Origin: a virus
DNA: 23,376 nt
Virus record (IMG/VR): IMGVR_UViG_3300000117_000191
Location: 3,353-26,728 of that record
Strand: one strand, 5' to 3'
A program made the translations under genes and the position numbers. This document shows, in pieces, positions 5,705-11,908 of the stretch (position 1 is its first letter; each line of letters starts with the position of its first letter). Under the pieces are notes generated by a model that made no database searches, was not told where the DNA came from, and worked only from the letters and a program-made list of their open reading frames with translations.

Positions 5705-7711
5705 ATGTTAAACTTAGCGAAGTTAGATACAAAAGAAATTACAGCGGAAGAAGTTCGCTCGGACTATTTGCATTTTGAAAGCAGTTCTAGTGAGTATCGA
5801 TACCAAATGGCTGAAGACCATGAGTTCTATCTTGGGAGCCAATTAACCAAGTCACAAAAGAACTACTTGCTCAGCGTGGGTCAACCCCCAGAAGCTAACA
5901 ATAAAATACGCCCTTCCGTTGAGCAAGTATTGGCAAACATTGCAGCTTCTGCTCCAGAATGGGATGTTCATTCTGTTGGAAAAACGGACAATGATGTTGC
6001 CTATGTTTTTGACCAGCTTTTAGATAAAATATGGTACGACTCTGACGGAGATGTTCATTTTAGACAAGCTTGTAAAGATTTCATTGTAAAAGGTATTGCT
6101 TGCATGTATATCTATCCGGATTATAAAGCTGATGGTGGTTTAGGTACGATAAAAGTAAAAAGAATGCCACCCGAGTCAATTTTTGTTGACCCCAATAGTT
6201 CTAATCCAGATTTTTCAGATGCTAGCGCAATAATTTATTCTGACATTCACACAAAAGAACATTTAAAAATATTATTTCCTCAATTTGAAAAAGAAATAGA
6301 AGAAGCAAAAGACGACGAAGATAGAAATGAAAAATCATCTGGAAAATACTCAAGAGACCAAATAGACACAGCCGGAACACAATCTTTAGACCATCAAGGG
6401 CGAGTTCGTAAATATTGTTACTTTACAAAAGTAAATATACCTCATGCTTTAATTCTCGATACAAAAACAGGTAAAAATCAGCTTTATAATAAAGAAGAAT
6501 ACAAAGAATTAATAAAAGACAAGCAATATGAGGATTTTTTAAAGCAAGGAATAATTACTGAGCAGTTAACGTACATTACAAGAGTAAGGGAAGTATTTGT
6601 AGTGGGAGATACTGTTTTGTATGACGAAGTATTACCTGTTTCAGAATACCCTATTGCAGTAGCTTGTAACGAACATGCGGGGAATCCGTTTCCTAGTGGT
6701 GATGTAAGACATTCAAAAACACCGCAAAGAATGTTAAATAGAACAGAAGCATTACTTATTTCACATACTAATGCTACGACAAATTTTAAGCTTGTTTATG
6801 AAGATGGCGCTATTGACGCTAGTGAAATTCAAAAATGGCACATTCCAAATGCTATTATTAGAGCTAATCCCGGTGCGCTTGCTTCTGGAAAAATAAAAGA
6901 ATTTAGCCCACCTTCAGTTTCTTCTGCTTTATATAATGAAAAAGCAAGATATGAAGTTGATATAGAAACAGTTTTTGGAGCGTACAAGTTTCTGCAAGGA
7001 AACTCTCAAGGTGCGCCGGGGACTGTTGGTGAAGCGCAAATAATGGATGAATCTAGCTCAAGAAAACAAAATTGGAAAATATTGCCAATATATGACATGC
7101 TTACACGTTCAGCAAAAGTAATTGTAGAATGGATGCCAAATATATATGACCAACAAAGAACATTGCGAATTGTTAGTCCAGAAGGCTCTGAAAGTGAAGT
7201 ACAATTAAATATTCCTGTTATAGATGATAAAACAGGCGCAGTAAAAAGATTATACGATTTAACAACTGCTCAATTTGATGTAAGAGTAGTTGTGGGTTCT
7301 ACAAGGTCTAAATCGCCAATGGCAGAACTACAAAAAGATTTAACACTCCTAAATGCAGGTATTTATGATAAGACGCAAGTAATTATGAATATGAAAGGCG
7401 ACATAGATAAAGCAAGCCTAATGCAAAGAATGGGAGAAATATCAAACTTGCAAGCTCAATTACAGCAAACGCAAGAAGAACTTAAGAAGATGCAAGGTGA
7501 CTTGCAGACTCGAGAGCGCGAAGTGTTCCATGCTAATATGCGTGCAGAAATTAGTGAGGCTACCAAACCTGTTTCAGAAGCGGTAAGCACCATTAAGTCT
7601 AACGCTAAGCTAGAACAAGCGCGACAAAGAGATAAGACTCGCATGGTCAGCGAAGACTTATCTGTCGCAAAACAAGCGGTTAACTCAGAATCCAAAGCTT
7701 CGCTAGCATAG
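5705..7711 (+). CDS. Portal protein, P22-like
   Basis: The portal forms the ring at one capsid vertex through which DNA enters and leaves. The 668-residue product has the family hallmarks: an N-terminal helical part with FYLGSQLTKSQKNYLL, the segment NNKIRPSVEQVLANIAASAP near 65-84, repeated beta segments including MPPESIFVDPNSSNPDF, and EHAGNPFPSGDVRHSKTPQ in the middle. A long C-terminal coiled coil lies at about 577-620 (LQAQLQQTQEELKKMQGDL). Length matches P22-type portals. The start at 5705 is the first in-frame ATG after a stop inside the TGTAACAT site, and it has no ribosome-binding site. Scaffold follows 25 bases later. Confidence 0.88.
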   Translation: MLNLAKLDTKEITAEEVRSDYLHFESSSSEYRYQMAEDHEFYLGSQLTKSQKNYLLSVGQPPEANNKIRPSVEQVLANIAASAPEWDVHSVGKTDNDVAYVFDQLLDKIWYDSDGDVHFRQACKDFIVKGIACMYIYPDYKADGGLGTIKVKRMPPESIFVDPNSSNPDFSDASAIIYSDIHTKEHLKILFPQFEKEIEEAKDDEDRNEKSSGKYSRDQIDTAGTQSLDHQGRVRKYCYFTKVNIPHALILDTKTGKNQLYNKEEYKELIKDKQYEDFLKQGIITEQLTYITRVREVFVVGDTVLYDEVLPVSEYPIAVACNEHAGNPFPSGDVRHSKTPQRMLNRTEALLISHTNATTNFKLVYEDGAIDASEIQKWHIPNAIIRANPGALASGKIKEFSPPSVSSALYNEKARYEVDIETVFGAYKFLQGNSQGAPGTVGEAQIMDESSSRKQNWKILPIYDMLTRSAKVIVEWMPNIYDQQRTLRIVSPEGSESEVQLNIPVIDDKTGAVKRLYDLTTAQFDVRVVVGSTRSKSPMAELQKDLTLLNAGIYDKTQVIMNMKGDIDKASLMQRMGEISNLQAQLQQTQEELKKMQGDLQTREREVFHANMRAEISEATKPVSEAVSTIKSNAKLEQARQRDKTRMVSEDLSVAKQAVNSESKASLA

Positions 7712-7736: not shown

Positions 7737-8645
7737 ATGACAAATGAAGACCAGAATAGTCAGGTAGAAGTAAAGAATGAAGATAACCTGTTAGCTGAAT
7801 TGGAACAATTCAACTCAGGCTCTTTACCCGAAGTAGAAGAACCTCAAGAACAGAACGTTTCTGTTGCAGAGGAGAATACAGAAGAAGTTCAAGAAACTAC
7901 ATCTGATGAGAAAGTAGATAAAGAACCAGAAACTAAATCCGAGATTGAGCAATGGTTAATTGAGAATAAGTTTAAAAATGATGAGCAGGGAGTCCAAAAA
8001 CTTGCTGACGCTTACAAACAGCTCCAATCAAAATCAGATAAGGAAAAAAATGAATGGAACTCTCAAAAAGAGAAGTTTGATAAGCTAGCACAGTTAGACG
8101 ATTACTTGGCTCAAAATCCTGATGTAGTTCAAAAACTCACAGAATCAGTAAATGAAAAACAACAGAATTTAAACTCTCCTCCGGTAAAGCCAGATGATTA
8201 TGATATTCTTGATGAAAGCATTGATAACTCTAGCTCCGCAAAATGGCGAGAACAACACAATGAATGGCTTATTCAACAAGGGGCTGTTCAAGCTATGCAA
8301 GAAGTTGAAAAGTTAAAGTCAGAGCTTAGTGAGTCTCAGGCATTTGACGCAGAAACTATAGAGTTACAAAAAATGGGGTTAAGCGATACTGAAATTGTTG
8401 AATATAGACAATTTATTGCTGACCCAAATAATGTAACTCAGGAGAACTTGGTTAATATATGGAAAACTTTATCTAATGGGCATAATTCTCAACCAAAAGT
8501 TGATGTAGAAACTGTTCCTAAGGTAAAAAACAAGCAAAATAGTGCAGCATCCATAAGTGGAAGCGCACCAAGTGCTATTGAACCAGAAGAAAAAGCTTTA
8601 GACAATTTTTGGAAAGGGATTATGGAATTTAATAATAATACATAA
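7737..8645 (+). CDS. Capsid scaffolding protein, 302 aa
   Basis: This gene probably encodes the internal scaffold that shapes the procapsid and leaves before or during packaging. It lies between portal and major capsid genes, the usual place, and starts behind AAGGAG. The sequence is acidic and low in complexity over residues 1-70, then has helical segments: EQWLIENKFKNDEQGVQKLA (70-90), a coiled-coil-like stretch to about 120, and another near 180-200. The C-terminus carries EEKALDNFWKGIMEF, plausibly the capsid-binding end. There is no membrane segment or enzyme motif. Scaffolds share little sequence, so the call rests on position, charge and helical content. Confidence 0.75.
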   Translation: MTNEDQNSQVEVKNEDNLLAELEQFNSGSLPEVEEPQEQNVSVAEENTEEVQETTSDEKVDKEPETKSEIEQWLIENKFKNDEQGVQKLADAYKQLQSKSDKEKNEWNSQKEKFDKLAQLDDYLAQNPDVVQKLTESVNEKQQNLNSPPVKPDDYDILDESIDNSSSAKWREQHNEWLIQQGAVQAMQEVEKLKSELSESQAFDAETIELQKMGLSDTEIVEYRQFIADPNNVTQENLVNIWKTLSNGHNSQPKVDVETVPKVKNKQNSAASISGSAPSAIEPEEKALDNFWKGIMEFNNNT

Positions 8646-8672
8646 TGTTATAATCCTTTTTTTTAACTAGGG

Positions 8673-8694
8673 TGTAACATTATTGTAACATAAT
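8673..8694 (+). promoter_or_regulatory. Tandem TGTAACAT site before the major capsid gene
   Basis: TGTAACATTAT and TGTAACATAAT stand exactly 11 bases apart, followed by a strong AGGAGG and the capsid ATG at 8711. A T-run lies just upstream (8656-8664), without a good stem. The site fits a dedicated promoter for the most abundant virion protein. Confidence 0.65.
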
Positions 8695-8710
8695 AATAGG
8701 AGGTAGCGAA

Positions 8711-10171
8711 ATGGCTACAAATTATGGTACCGGAACAGCTCTTCAATTTTCTGACTCGTCTCAAAGGCAGGTTTTAGAACTTGGAGAGAAAATCCACTAT
8801 TACAACCCTAATGTTACTCCCATTTTCTCTCTGTTTGGAATGAAGTCTATGTTGACTCCAGTCCCTATCTTTGAGTGGATGGAAGATGAGTACATGATTA
8901 AAAAGTCTGTTAAAAAATCAATGGTTACAGCAACGAATGGCGATATTGCAGCTAGTGCTGACCTTGGTGATACAACTACAGCTGATATTAATGGACATAA
9001 TACGATTGTCAGATTTGACAAGCAAGCTGATATGGAGCTTTTTGAAGTCGGTGGACTTTATTCAGTTTCTCAATCAAATGGAACAATACAAGCTAATGTA
9101 ACACATGTTATTGCAGTAGCTATTGGTAAAAGCGTAAATAGTGCAAACGCTTCAGATAGAATGGTTCAATTTATTGGTTGCCATGTTAAATCTGGTGATG
9201 CTACTATTTATCAAGTTGAGCAATGCGCTGATGGGTCAGACCTTTTTGGAGTGAATGGCAGTGATGTTACTACATTTACCCATGTAGGAACTGCTGGACA
9301 GTATGATGGCGGTGCTTATAAAGGTTCAAATGGTCTTTTTCAAGCTGAAACTGCATTTGTTGATGACAAAGAGTTTAAGCTAGAAGGCGGAGCCGGTGTT
9401 TATGCTGAAGGCGCAGCAGTTGGTGCTGAAACCAGTAAGAAAGTTCGTAGGTTGAAAAATTGTACTCAAATTTTTCGCGAACCTTATACTATTACCAACA
9501 CAGCTAAAGCTTCTAAGCATTATGGCGGTTCAGAGATGTCTCGTTTACAAGCTAGGAAGCTAGCCAAGATAAAAGCAGACATTGAATGGTCTATTCTTAC
9601 GAATGGCGCTCTTTCTTTAGATGCTAGCTCAGAAAACCCAAAAAGAGCTTTTCAAGGTTTAGGCCTTGGTAGTTCTAATGGGTCTATTGTCTCTCTAAAT
9701 GGATTTGACAATGCAAACCTAAGATGGGATTATGATGGTGCAAATCCTCTTAATCTTTTAGATGGTGTTTGTGAGTATATCTTTTCAGACATGGTTTCTG
9801 GTTCAATGAAGAAAACTGTATTTGCTTCTAATAAGTGGCTTGTACATCTAGCTTCTGCAACTAGGCTTCAAGATACTGGATTTTATGACTCAGGCGAAAG
9901 TACAGCCTCTGGTCTTAGAGTTCGTAAGTATATTGGCCCTGTTGGTGAACTTGAATTTGTTGCTCACCCTTTCTTAAAAGGTGCTTACGAAGATTATGCT
10001 GTAGCGATTGACCCTGCGAATTTTTCAATTCGCCCGTTGGCGGGTCGCGACATGCAACTTCGTTCTGACATCGTAAAAGATGGTCGTGATGGACAAACTG
10101 ACGAATGGCTAATGGAAATGGGTGTAGAGCTTAGAAATGAGCAAACACACGCAATCTTAAAGCTAAGTTAA
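8711..10171 (+). CDS. Major capsid protein, SU10-type (HK97 fold)
   Basis: This is the shell protein. The 486-residue product starts after AGGAGG. It has an N-terminal arm, MATNYGTGTALQFSDSSQRQ, then NPNVTPIFSLFG and the strand VPIFEWMEDEYM. A long insert follows (about 100-240), then the core segment IFREPYTITNTA near 254 with YGGSEMSRLQARKLAKIKAD, as in SU10-like/DUF5309 capsid proteins. The C-terminal half has the expected strand KYIGPVGELEFVAHPFL and the ending RNEQTHAILKL. No protease or cleavage site can be assigned. It is flanked by the scaffold gene, its own TGTAACAT site and a strong downstream hairpin, all consistent with high, separately controlled expression. Confidence 0.88.
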   Translation: MATNYGTGTALQFSDSSQRQVLELGEKIHYYNPNVTPIFSLFGMKSMLTPVPIFEWMEDEYMIKKSVKKSMVTATNGDIAASADLGDTTTADINGHNTIVRFDKQADMELFEVGGLYSVSQSNGTIQANVTHVIAVAIGKSVNSANASDRMVQFIGCHVKSGDATIYQVEQCADGSDLFGVNGSDVTTFTHVGTAGQYDGGAYKGSNGLFQAETAFVDDKEFKLEGGAGVYAEGAAVGAETSKKVRRLKNCTQIFREPYTITNTAKASKHYGGSEMSRLQARKLAKIKADIEWSILTNGALSLDASSENPKRAFQGLGLGSSNGSIVSLNGFDNANLRWDYDGANPLNLLDGVCEYIFSDMVSGSMKKTVFASNKWLVHLASATRLQDTGFYDSGESTASGLRVRKYIGPVGELEFVAHPFLKGAYEDYAVAIDPANFSIRPLAGRDMQLRSDIVKDGRDGQTDEWLMEMGVELRNEQTHAILKLS

Positions 10172-10184
10172 TCAGTAACTAATC

Positions 10185-10212
10185 GCTTGGGGGTAGGTAA
10201 CTACCCTCAAGC
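10185..10212 (+). promoter_or_regulatory. Strong RNA hairpin with GUAA tetraloop after the capsid gene
   Basis: GCTTGGGGGTAG pairs with CTACCCTCAAGC over 12 positions with a single G-U wobble, closed by the loop GTAA of the stable GNRA class. No T-run follows, so it is not a classical intrinsic terminator. It may protect the capsid mRNA 3' end, cause partial termination, or control the tiny gene whose ATG starts six bases later. Confidence 0.7.
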
Positions 10213-10218
10213 ATTGTT

Positions 10219-10341
10219 ATGAATAATACAACATACGGCACAGGAGCGACAAGCTTTACAGATGGTTCTAGCAGGCTAGTTAGAACAATATCTAAAAAAT
10301 CAAGAGTTCGCAAAAAATATAAAAAAAGGAAAAAGAAATAA
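10219..10341 (+). CDS. 40-residue basic protein with capsid-like N-terminus
   Basis: A short open frame fills the gap after the capsid gene and shares a base with the next start (TAATG). It reads MNNTTYGTGATSFTDGSSRL, then VRTISKKSRVRKKYKKRKKK. The first 20 residues match the start of the major capsid protein (MATNYGTGTALQFSDSSQRQ) in the pattern Y-G-T-G-x-x-x-F-x-D-x-S-x-R, while the rest is a Lys/Arg tail. No ribosome-binding site is visible outside the hairpin that ends six bases before the ATG, so expression may be low or coupled to structure. It could be a minor capsid-associated or DNA-binding protein, or a remnant of a duplicated capsid start. The resemblance is seen directly; the role is inference. 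Confidence 0.6.
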   Translation: MNNTTYGTGATSFTDGSSRLVRTISKKSRVRKKYKKRKKK

Positions 10342-11258
10342 TGCGTTATCAAGAAGCATACGAACTAATAGATGTAGGGGTTATTTCTGGTGGCGTTGAA
10401 ATTCCAATATCTGAAAATTTAAAAAGTATTTATTTTGACCAAGCAATCAACGAAATTGCAATGAGGTCGGTAAGAAAAAAGAACTCTCAATCTTTTGCCA
10501 CAAGTGGTAAAGAGTACATTTTTACAAACGAAGATTACTCTGGGCAAGTTTATAAAGTTGAGTTAGGGCAAACAGACGTTCCTTTTGTTGATGAGTCAGC
10601 AATTATATCTAATGTAACTGATGATGATATATCTAAAATTGGTTATTATATAAAAACTGATGTGTCTAATGGGGAAATAACTAATGTAACAAGCGCTAAT
10701 CCAACTGCTATAACATCTAGTAATCATGGACTTTTAACAGGGGATTATGTTGTTTTTAGCGAAATTAAAGGACATTATGTAACAGCTACAAAAGTATCAT
10801 ACCTTAATGGTAAAAGATTCGTAGTTACAAAAATAAATGACAATGATTTTTCTGTTGCTATTGCATCTAATTCTGGAAATACAGTTTATTCTAGCTCCGG
10901 AGTTTGGCAAAAAGATAATCATAAAATTTATTTAACTAAAAACCCGGAAAGCGGTAGTACTCTAAAAGTATTTTATTATGCTAAGCCAAAAGCAAAGACA
11001 AGTATAGTTAGTAGAATTGATTTACCTGACCAATTAATCCCTTCAGCAATACATCAAACTTTAGGTCACTTTTTAAATCTTGGAGGGAATCTTCAAGTGG
11101 GAAGTGGACATATGGGTTTAGCAAGAAAAATAGAACAAGACTATATTGATACTTCTAGAGCAAAAGAACCAATGCCTCATTTAATTCCAAATCCTATGCA
11201 ATCTTTTGTTACCACAAGAAATGGCTCAATAGGTAATTTAACAGGAGCAGATGATTAA
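10341..11258 (+). CDS. Head-tail connector / adaptor protein with FCCH-like insert, 305 aa
   Basis: It lies directly after the capsid cluster, where short-tailed phages carry the proteins that dock on the portal. The N-terminus, MRYQEAYELIDVGVISGG, and the helix SIYFDQAINEIAMRSVRKKN fit adaptor-type helices. Residues about 113-175 contain TSSNHGLLTGDYVVFSEIKG followed by LNGKRFVVTKINDNDFSV, the pattern known in phage proteins as resembling the FCCH domain of ubiquitin-activating enzyme; here it is probably a beta-rich structural module, not an enzyme. The C-terminal half (ALPD-like RIDLPDQLIPSAIHQTLGHF and helix GLARKIEQDYIDTSR) returns to adaptor style. AGGA precedes the ATG; the stop overlaps the next start. 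Confidence 0.6.
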   Translation: MRYQEAYELIDVGVISGGVEIPISENLKSIYFDQAINEIAMRSVRKKNSQSFATSGKEYIFTNEDYSGQVYKVELGQTDVPFVDESAIISNVTDDDISKIGYYIKTDVSNGEITNVTSANPTAITSSNHGLLTGDYVVFSEIKGHYVTATKVSYLNGKRFVVTKINDNDFSVAIASNSGNTVYSSSGVWQKDNHKIYLTKNPESGSTLKVFYYAKPKAKTSIVSRIDLPDQLIPSAIHQTLGHFLNLGGNLQVGSGHMGLARKIEQDYIDTSRAKEPMPHLIPNPMQSFVTTRNGSIGNLTGADD

Positions 11259-11908
11259 TGGCTGATTTTCAAACTAGAATAGAAGATATTATTGGTGCAA
11301 CAGTTAGCTTAGGTAGTGATGACTCAGTTGCTAATGAGCAAGCAATTCAAGACGCTTTACAAGATACTGCTAGTGATATAATTAATAAAATAACTCCCGA
11401 AATTCTTATACAATTTGCAACAAAGTCGTCAAATATAACATCTAACCCTGTTGTTAGTGATTTGGAAAATTCTAGAGTTTTAATGGTAGACAGAAAAAAT
11501 TCTGATACTTTTTACATATCGTGTGTTTATATTAATTCAGATTTAGGTGGAAAAATACAAAATCCAGAAAGTATTTATTTTGCTACAGAAAAATCTCCAA
11601 ATTGGACATTTAATGATAATGATGTATATGTATATCCTGCTCCTACTTCAGATTATCCGAGTAGGTGTTATACTATGGAAACTCCAACAATAGAGCATGA
11701 CAGTATTACTATTCCAAAATTTCCAAATGAGTTAGAGCAAGCTGTAGTTATTGGCGCTTGTGCTAGACTAAAGCAAAGACAAGTATCATTTTTTAACGAA
11801 GATGAAGATTCTGAAATTGTTGCTCTTCATCGCGCTCAGTATCAAGAGTTAGAACAAAAATATCAAGACGCGCTAGCACCTTTTCTAGCACAAGGCTCTG
11901 ATGGCTAA
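11258..11908 (+). CDS. Head completion / adaptor protein, 216 aa
   Basis: The gene begins at ATG 11258, behind AGGAG, and overlaps the previous stop. It encodes a mixed alpha/beta protein: an N-terminal helix, ADFQTRIEDIIGATVSLG, then QAIQDALQDTASDIINKITP, a beta middle (VLMVDRKNSDTFYISCVYIN, ESIYFATEKSPNWTFNDNDV) and a final helix, LHRAQYQELEQKYQDAL. That arrangement and the position between connector and large tail protein fit the second adaptor layer of short-tailed phages. No enzyme motif is seen. It overlaps the next gene by eight bases, so these virion genes are probably translated as a chain. The family cannot be named with certainty. Confidence 0.6.
   Translation: MADFQTRIEDIIGATVSLGSDDSVANEQAIQDALQDTASDIINKITPEILIQFATKSSNITSNPVVSDLENSRVLMVDRKNSDTFYISCVYINSDLGGKIQNPESIYFATEKSPNWTFNDNDVYVYPAPTSDYPSRCYTMETPTIEHDSITIPKFPNELEQAVVIGACARLKQRQVSFFNEDEDSEIVALHRAQYQELEQKYQDALAPFLAQGSDG

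Follow-up and report, generated by a model that had tools for sequence, protein, structure and literature searches.

The J protein of phiX174 and VP8 of microviruses are short Lys/Arg-rich peptides, one end of which is tethered to the inner capsid surface while the other binds the packaged DNA (PMC11281519). In adenovirus, VII and mu are basic DNA-condensing proteins, and the N-terminus of VII has been proposed to anchor capsomers (PMC7998265). The internal proteins of phage T4 carry an N-terminal tag that encapsidates them into the scaffolding core, and their lysines contact DNA (PMC3012670). CpmB of SaPI1 is a small protein that carries a copy of the scaffold's terminal RIIK motif and docks at the site that the scaffold itself uses (PMC5644958). 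Contacts between scaffold and coat are described as well: R293 and K296 of the P22 scaffold bind D14, E15 and E18 of the coat N-arm (PMC9965877), and a helix of the 80-alpha scaffolding protein (SP) touches the coat N-arm (PMC5644958).

The gene described here is a short open reading frame (ORF) of 40 codons at positions 10219 to 10341 on the forward strand of the window, that is, the whole stretch of 23,376 nucleotides of viral DNA that was analyzed, taken from a virus record of 26.7 kb. It encodes the protein MNNTTYGTGATSFTDGSSRLVRTISKKSRVRKKYKKRKKK and begins 47 nt past the stop codon of the gene for the major capsid protein (MCP; 8711 to 10171, forward strand). Residues 1-25 (10219 to 10293, forward strand) resemble the N-terminal arm of this MCP, and residues 20-40 (10276 to 10338, forward strand) form a Lys/Arg-rich tail with, over 46 relatives, a net charge of +9 to +14 and a K+R content of 43-64%. 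With J and VP8 the product shares the small size, since these are Lys/Arg-rich proteins of about 40 aa or less, but the order of the parts is reversed, the tether being C-terminal and the basic part N-terminal in J/VP8; furthermore, J/VP8 belong to ssDNA viruses with an unrelated shell, and descriptions of their tether do not present it as a capsid-protein copy. The short protein matched nothing in Pfam and PHROGs, nor was a sequence or profile relation to J/VP8 seen there, a query of 40 aa having little power in such searches. The likeness to adenovirus VII and mu is one of working principle (a basic DNA-condensing type with an N-terminal anchor), although VII loses its anchor by cleavage, no copying of the hexon is described for that anchor, and the virus is eukaryotic. 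The T4 capsid targeting sequence is likewise comparable by working principle, combining an N-terminal tag with DNA-contacting basic residues; however, several internal proteins share it and no copying of the major capsid arm is described for it, whereas the motif of the short ORF occurs in these loci on the MCP and the short ORF only. CpmB also copies a terminal assembly motif of another capsid-assembly protein, but of the scaffold and not of the coat; it is encoded by a phage parasite and no basic DNA tail is described for it. By sequence, the short protein belongs to none of J, VII/mu, the T4 internal proteins and CpmB. In a limited search of the open-access literature, which is weak evidence of absence, no account of a capsid-arm copy serving as an address came up.

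The surrounding head genes follow a P22/SU10-like order: terminase, portal, putative scaffold, MCP, short ORF, neck-region protein and SU10 adaptor. On the forward strand these include the P22_portal protein (5705 to 7711; PF16510, E 1.5e-67), a 302-aa protein assigned as putative scaffold by its position (7737 to 8645), the 486-aa MCP of the SU10_MCP family (PF17236, E 9e-36; phrog_1328, major head protein, E 5e-23), a 305-aa neck-region protein directly downstream of the short ORF (10341 to 11258) and a 216-aa SU10_adaptor protein (11258 to 11908; PF24175, E 3e-7). The MCP passes the SU10_MCP profile with 124 bits against a cut-off of 24 over residues 15-484. MCP family and neck genes are those of the SU10/VP1-type short-tailed phages (PF17236, PF24175, PF16510; PDB 9in6, E 2.8e-19); identity to the MCPs of annotated phages reached at most 24-28% in a protein search. 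No arm-like ORF was seen after the MCP in the four annotated SU10/VP1-type relatives checked (L205-L208), and no copy of the short ORF turned up when annotated phages were searched at the DNA and protein levels. An AlphaFold model of the MCP built from 33 sequences has a mean pLDDT of 61 and a disordered N-arm (pLDDT about 26-35), which makes it uninformative about where the arm docks. As a separate observation, the MCP contains, at residues about 60-225, a long region that the solved capsid proteins of VP1 and SU10 lack; this region is predicted, with fair confidence, to consist of beta strands. Upstream of the terminase, positions 2050-2367 of the window encode a small basic protein with DUF6321 (E 4.6e-25). 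The putative scaffold is rich in acidic residues and matched no known scaffold family. It ends in a conserved peptide, EKALDNFWKGIMEFNNNT (8589 to 8642, forward strand), with the pattern F-(W/M/F)-x-(G/S)-(I/L)-(M/L) in the 63 listed cases; by analogy with P22 gp8 and 80-alpha SP this peptide is a candidate capsid-binding element.

The preliminary description had pointed to a pattern, Y-G-T-G-x-x-x-F-x-D-x-S-x-R, common to residues 6-19 of the short protein and residues 5-19 of the adjacent MCP with a gap of one residue. The likeness, written here as Y-G-T-G-x3/4-F-x-D-x3-R, is borne out and persists once homologues are aligned, and neither of the two findings named there as refuting the idea, a frame broken in close relatives or a resemblance lost on alignment, was made; its extent had been understated, as the likeness continues to about residue 25 (R-x-V-x-x-L). 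When a profile of 36 distinct short proteins was compared with 52 MCP N-termini, hhalign gave a score of 49.3 over 25 columns (E 2.6e-10), and across runs the match covered 25-28 columns with scores of 49-50 and E values from 2.6e-10 to 1.6e-10. The corresponding null, 300 column shuffles, had a mean score of 8.4 (sd 1.7, maximum 17.9), and shuffling the N-terminal half alone raised no score above 19.6. Among the 304 six-frame ORFs of the window the MCP was the only non-self match to the short ORF below E 0.01. In the first 80 loci the motif was confined to the MCP N-terminus and the short ORF, barring chance frames that contain stops and one match internal to an MCP, and no other protein with the arm tag was found in the motif scan of the loci or among the window ORFs; a further candidate carrier, in locus L088, was rejected as a chance match within a LamG-like protein. 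Judged by these profile scores, the arm resemblance of the short protein far exceeds chance.

The MCP arm (residues 1-29; 8711 to 8797, forward strand), which starts with MATNYGTGTALQFSDSSQRQVLELGEKI, has Y5, G6, G8, Q12, F13, Q18 and R19 invariant in an alignment of 33 MCPs. In the short protein T5, Y6, G7, T8, F13 and G16 are invariant (39/39 aligned sequences), D15 is kept in 38/39 and R19 in 37/39. Both alignments have in common Y, G, (T), G, F, (S), D and R, then V and L. The MCP-arm invariants Q12, Q18, Q20, E23 and G25 are mostly missing from the short protein, so that its binding may differ from that of the MCP arm. The short ORF holds its own consensus, TTYGTGAT-FSDG, and does not track MCP variants such as SYGAGTALQ. 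Where MCP and short ORF have identical residues, the same codon is used in 110/379 cases, against 137 expected from codon usage. With codon sharing no higher than codon usage predicts, neither recent duplication nor gene conversion has left a mark, and a recent duplication of the MCP was rejected as the source of the short ORF by this comparison. The arm would stem either from an old duplication rewritten under protein-level selection or from convergence; an ancient duplication followed by a new function is possible.

Relatives were gathered via the MCP (80 loci, then 80 further rows, largely from the same contigs) and, in a second and independent gathering, with a degenerate nucleotide pattern derived from the short ORF, which gave 52 hits. 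Of these, 51 place the short ORF next to an SU10-type MCP or next to the gene that follows it; L088, the one exception, is a chance hit. After removal of duplicates, 68 intervals were complete from the MCP to the next gene, and the short ORF is present in 46 of these distinct relatives. On the MCP tree it occurs in 44/44 members of one clade, a single uninterrupted group, and its presence maps as a single change (44 rows with it, 22 without; support 90/84; 91% of bootstrap trees). Its history is one of a single origin or a single loss, with no scattered losses. Only two relatives of the MCP came from a genome collection; their contigs had been assigned to Candidatus Marinimicrobia bins, and the short ORF is present in L209, one of the two. 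Within the relatives the frame after the capsid gene is open and conserved, as the preliminary description had proposed to check, and the second check proposed there, of synonymous against nonsynonymous change, indicates purifying selection: in pooled pairwise Nei-Gojobori estimates, in which related pairs are not independent, dN/dS is about 0.28 for the whole ORF, 0.31 for its N-terminal half and 0.23 for the tail; the MCP stands at 0.19 and its first 33 residues at 0.10. Between the window and its nearest relatives (L008, L013 and L040) synonymous differences in the short ORF number 14 in total and nonsynonymous ones 5. On these comparisons, the short ORF is a real, conserved gene under purifying selection. 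That it might instead be a non-functional remnant of a partial MCP duplication, an alternative raised in the preliminary description, is suggested by its place beside the MCP and its N-terminal similarity to it, yet this is scarcely credible, its supposed lack of function being refuted by a frame kept in 44/44 members of the clade at a dN/dS of 0.28, with a consensus (FSDG, TTYGTGAT) unlike that of the MCP and codons shared no more often than expected.

Directly after the MCP stop lies a strong, terminator-like hairpin with a 12-bp stem (10185 to 10212, forward strand), which is present in nearly all 68 relatives and shows paired stem changes (GGGGGTAGG/CTACCC, CTAGGGGCA/TGCCCCTAG and GGGGGCGG/CCGCCCCC); it had no match in Rfam. 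The hairpin remains beside the MCP when other genes are inserted. It was considered as an operator of the short ORF and rejected in this role, as it keeps to the MCP stop with the ORF 160-735 nt off. The short ORF itself is kept in several relatives where a protein of 158-221 aa or other small ORFs separate it from the MCP (L010, L023, L036, L038, L050, L053 and L070). The inserted protein (L010, 5723-6388; L023, 6514-7026; L036, 6514-6990; L070, 6514-7179) is variable, with a constant front (MAxSYKDSLRI...) and a differing rear, and is possibly a head decoration protein.

The stop of the short ORF overlaps the start of the downstream 305-aa gene (TAATG), an overlap of 1 nt in 25/46 relatives and of 4-32 nt in 14/46. 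Together with the adaptor-like genes that come next, this overlap would suit an accessory of the portal or neck that is co-translated with the neck protein, whose arm occupies MCP N-arm sites vacated where the portal replaces a penton and whose tail contacts the DNA end or the portal. Such a role is quite improbable, given that small basic ORFs can intervene before the neck gene and larger genes after the MCP, so that tight coupling is not required. The final codons of the short ORF, AAAAGGAAAAAGAAATAATG, also yield an AAGGA-like site before the next ATG, and the Lys/Arg tail might on this account be mainly a by-product of the A-rich ribosome-binding region of the next gene. This is very unlikely: the basic stretch is about 60 nt long and uses five Arg codons (CGT, AGA, AGG, CGC and CGA), the dN/dS of the tail is 0.23, and the tail stays basic in 7 relatives in which the ORF ends 90-103 nt before the next conserved gene. 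The ribosome-site artifact is largely refuted by these relatives.

In 18/22 relatives that lack the short ORF, the interval between the MCP and the neck gene holds at least one other small protein with 25-59% K+R, of several unrelated types; L063, L066, L068 and L204 have no K/R-rich ORF in this slot. In L034 (5756-6810), L044 (1595-2425) and L178 (4483-4821) the slot is filled by arrays of Lys/Arg-rich small proteins, one to five in number and different from each other, whose families are mostly unnamed. The simplest reading would be that this slot calls for some small basic protein, a demand that different proteins meet.

A natural exchange of the MCP bears on the binding partner of the short protein. 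Compared with the related locus L013, the DNA of the window is 96-99% identical over portal and scaffold to about position 8500, while the MCP region is about 80% identical or unalignable and the short ORF 94-98% identical; at the protein level the values are 97% for the scaffold, 71% for the MCP, 100% for the short protein and 86% for the next gene. Positions 8500-10100 make up a clean, gene-sized mosaic relative to L013. Against L001 the pattern is reversed (MCP 93%, short ORF 75%). One identical short protein is therefore paired with two MCPs, 29% of whose residues differ, which argues that its partner is not a fast-changing part of the MCP; the partner is likely to be the scaffold or an unchanging part of the MCP. 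Co-variation singles out no partner, as the divergence of the short protein has about equal partial correlations with that of scaffold, MCP and next gene (0.20, 0.29 and 0.29; pairwise distances, 39 phages).

By analogy with the systems above, the short protein is proposed to be a capsid-internal, DNA-binding accessory peptide recruited via the site at which the MCP N-arm docks, plausibly the C-terminus of the scaffold, a proposal that in our judgment has about an even chance of being right. During procapsid assembly the N-terminal half would dock at the site of the MCP N-arm. The favored site is on the scaffolding protein, at its C-terminal helix, as in P22 gp8 and 80-alpha SP, with a neighboring MCP subunit as second choice; once docked, the peptide would end up enclosed in the shell, and there its basic tail may neutralize or tether the packaged DNA. 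The preliminary description had already considered a part that binds like a capsid arm, coupled to a tail that holds DNA; the capping of assembly that was also raised there neither gains nor loses support. The combination of arm and tail fits all the sequence evidence and the basic proteins of the 18/22 slots that lack the short ORF, while virion location, arm partner and DNA binding are what we infer. The further idea that this is self-mimicry serving as a packaging address, with the tip of the MCP set on a protamine-like tail and sorted into the procapsid via the docking site of the shell protein itself, is offered tentatively, a little on the doubtful side of even.

The same arm could make the short protein an assembly regulator instead of a virion component, competing with MCP N-arms for the scaffold and so tuning nucleation, shell size or scaffold release, with the basic tail binding RNA or acidic patches of the scaffold. 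Short copies of assembly motifs are known as competitors, CpmB redirects capsid size with its copy of the scaffold RIIK motif (PMC5644958), and the putative scaffold is acid-rich; nevertheless, the many unrelated basic small proteins that share the slot and have no arm suggest that what the occupants of the slot have in common is the function of the basic part, and a purely regulatory role is rather unlikely. Defenses that sense capsids are known in bacteria, and a mimic of a conserved capsid peptide might act as a decoy against a host defense that senses the MCP N-terminus. A decoy would leave the basic tail and the shared slot unexplained, and this explanation is highly improbable.

Next to their capsid genes, uncultured phages of this kind commonly have small Lys-rich ORFs to which no role has been assigned. 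In the family of the short ORF, the copy of the capsid arm is a readable clue that predicts location and partner. If the proposal of a capsid-internal accessory peptide is true, the tip of a coat-protein arm would be a sufficient address for loading cargo into an HK97-fold procapsid, and the finding would hint at the job of the other basic ORFs that occupy this slot.
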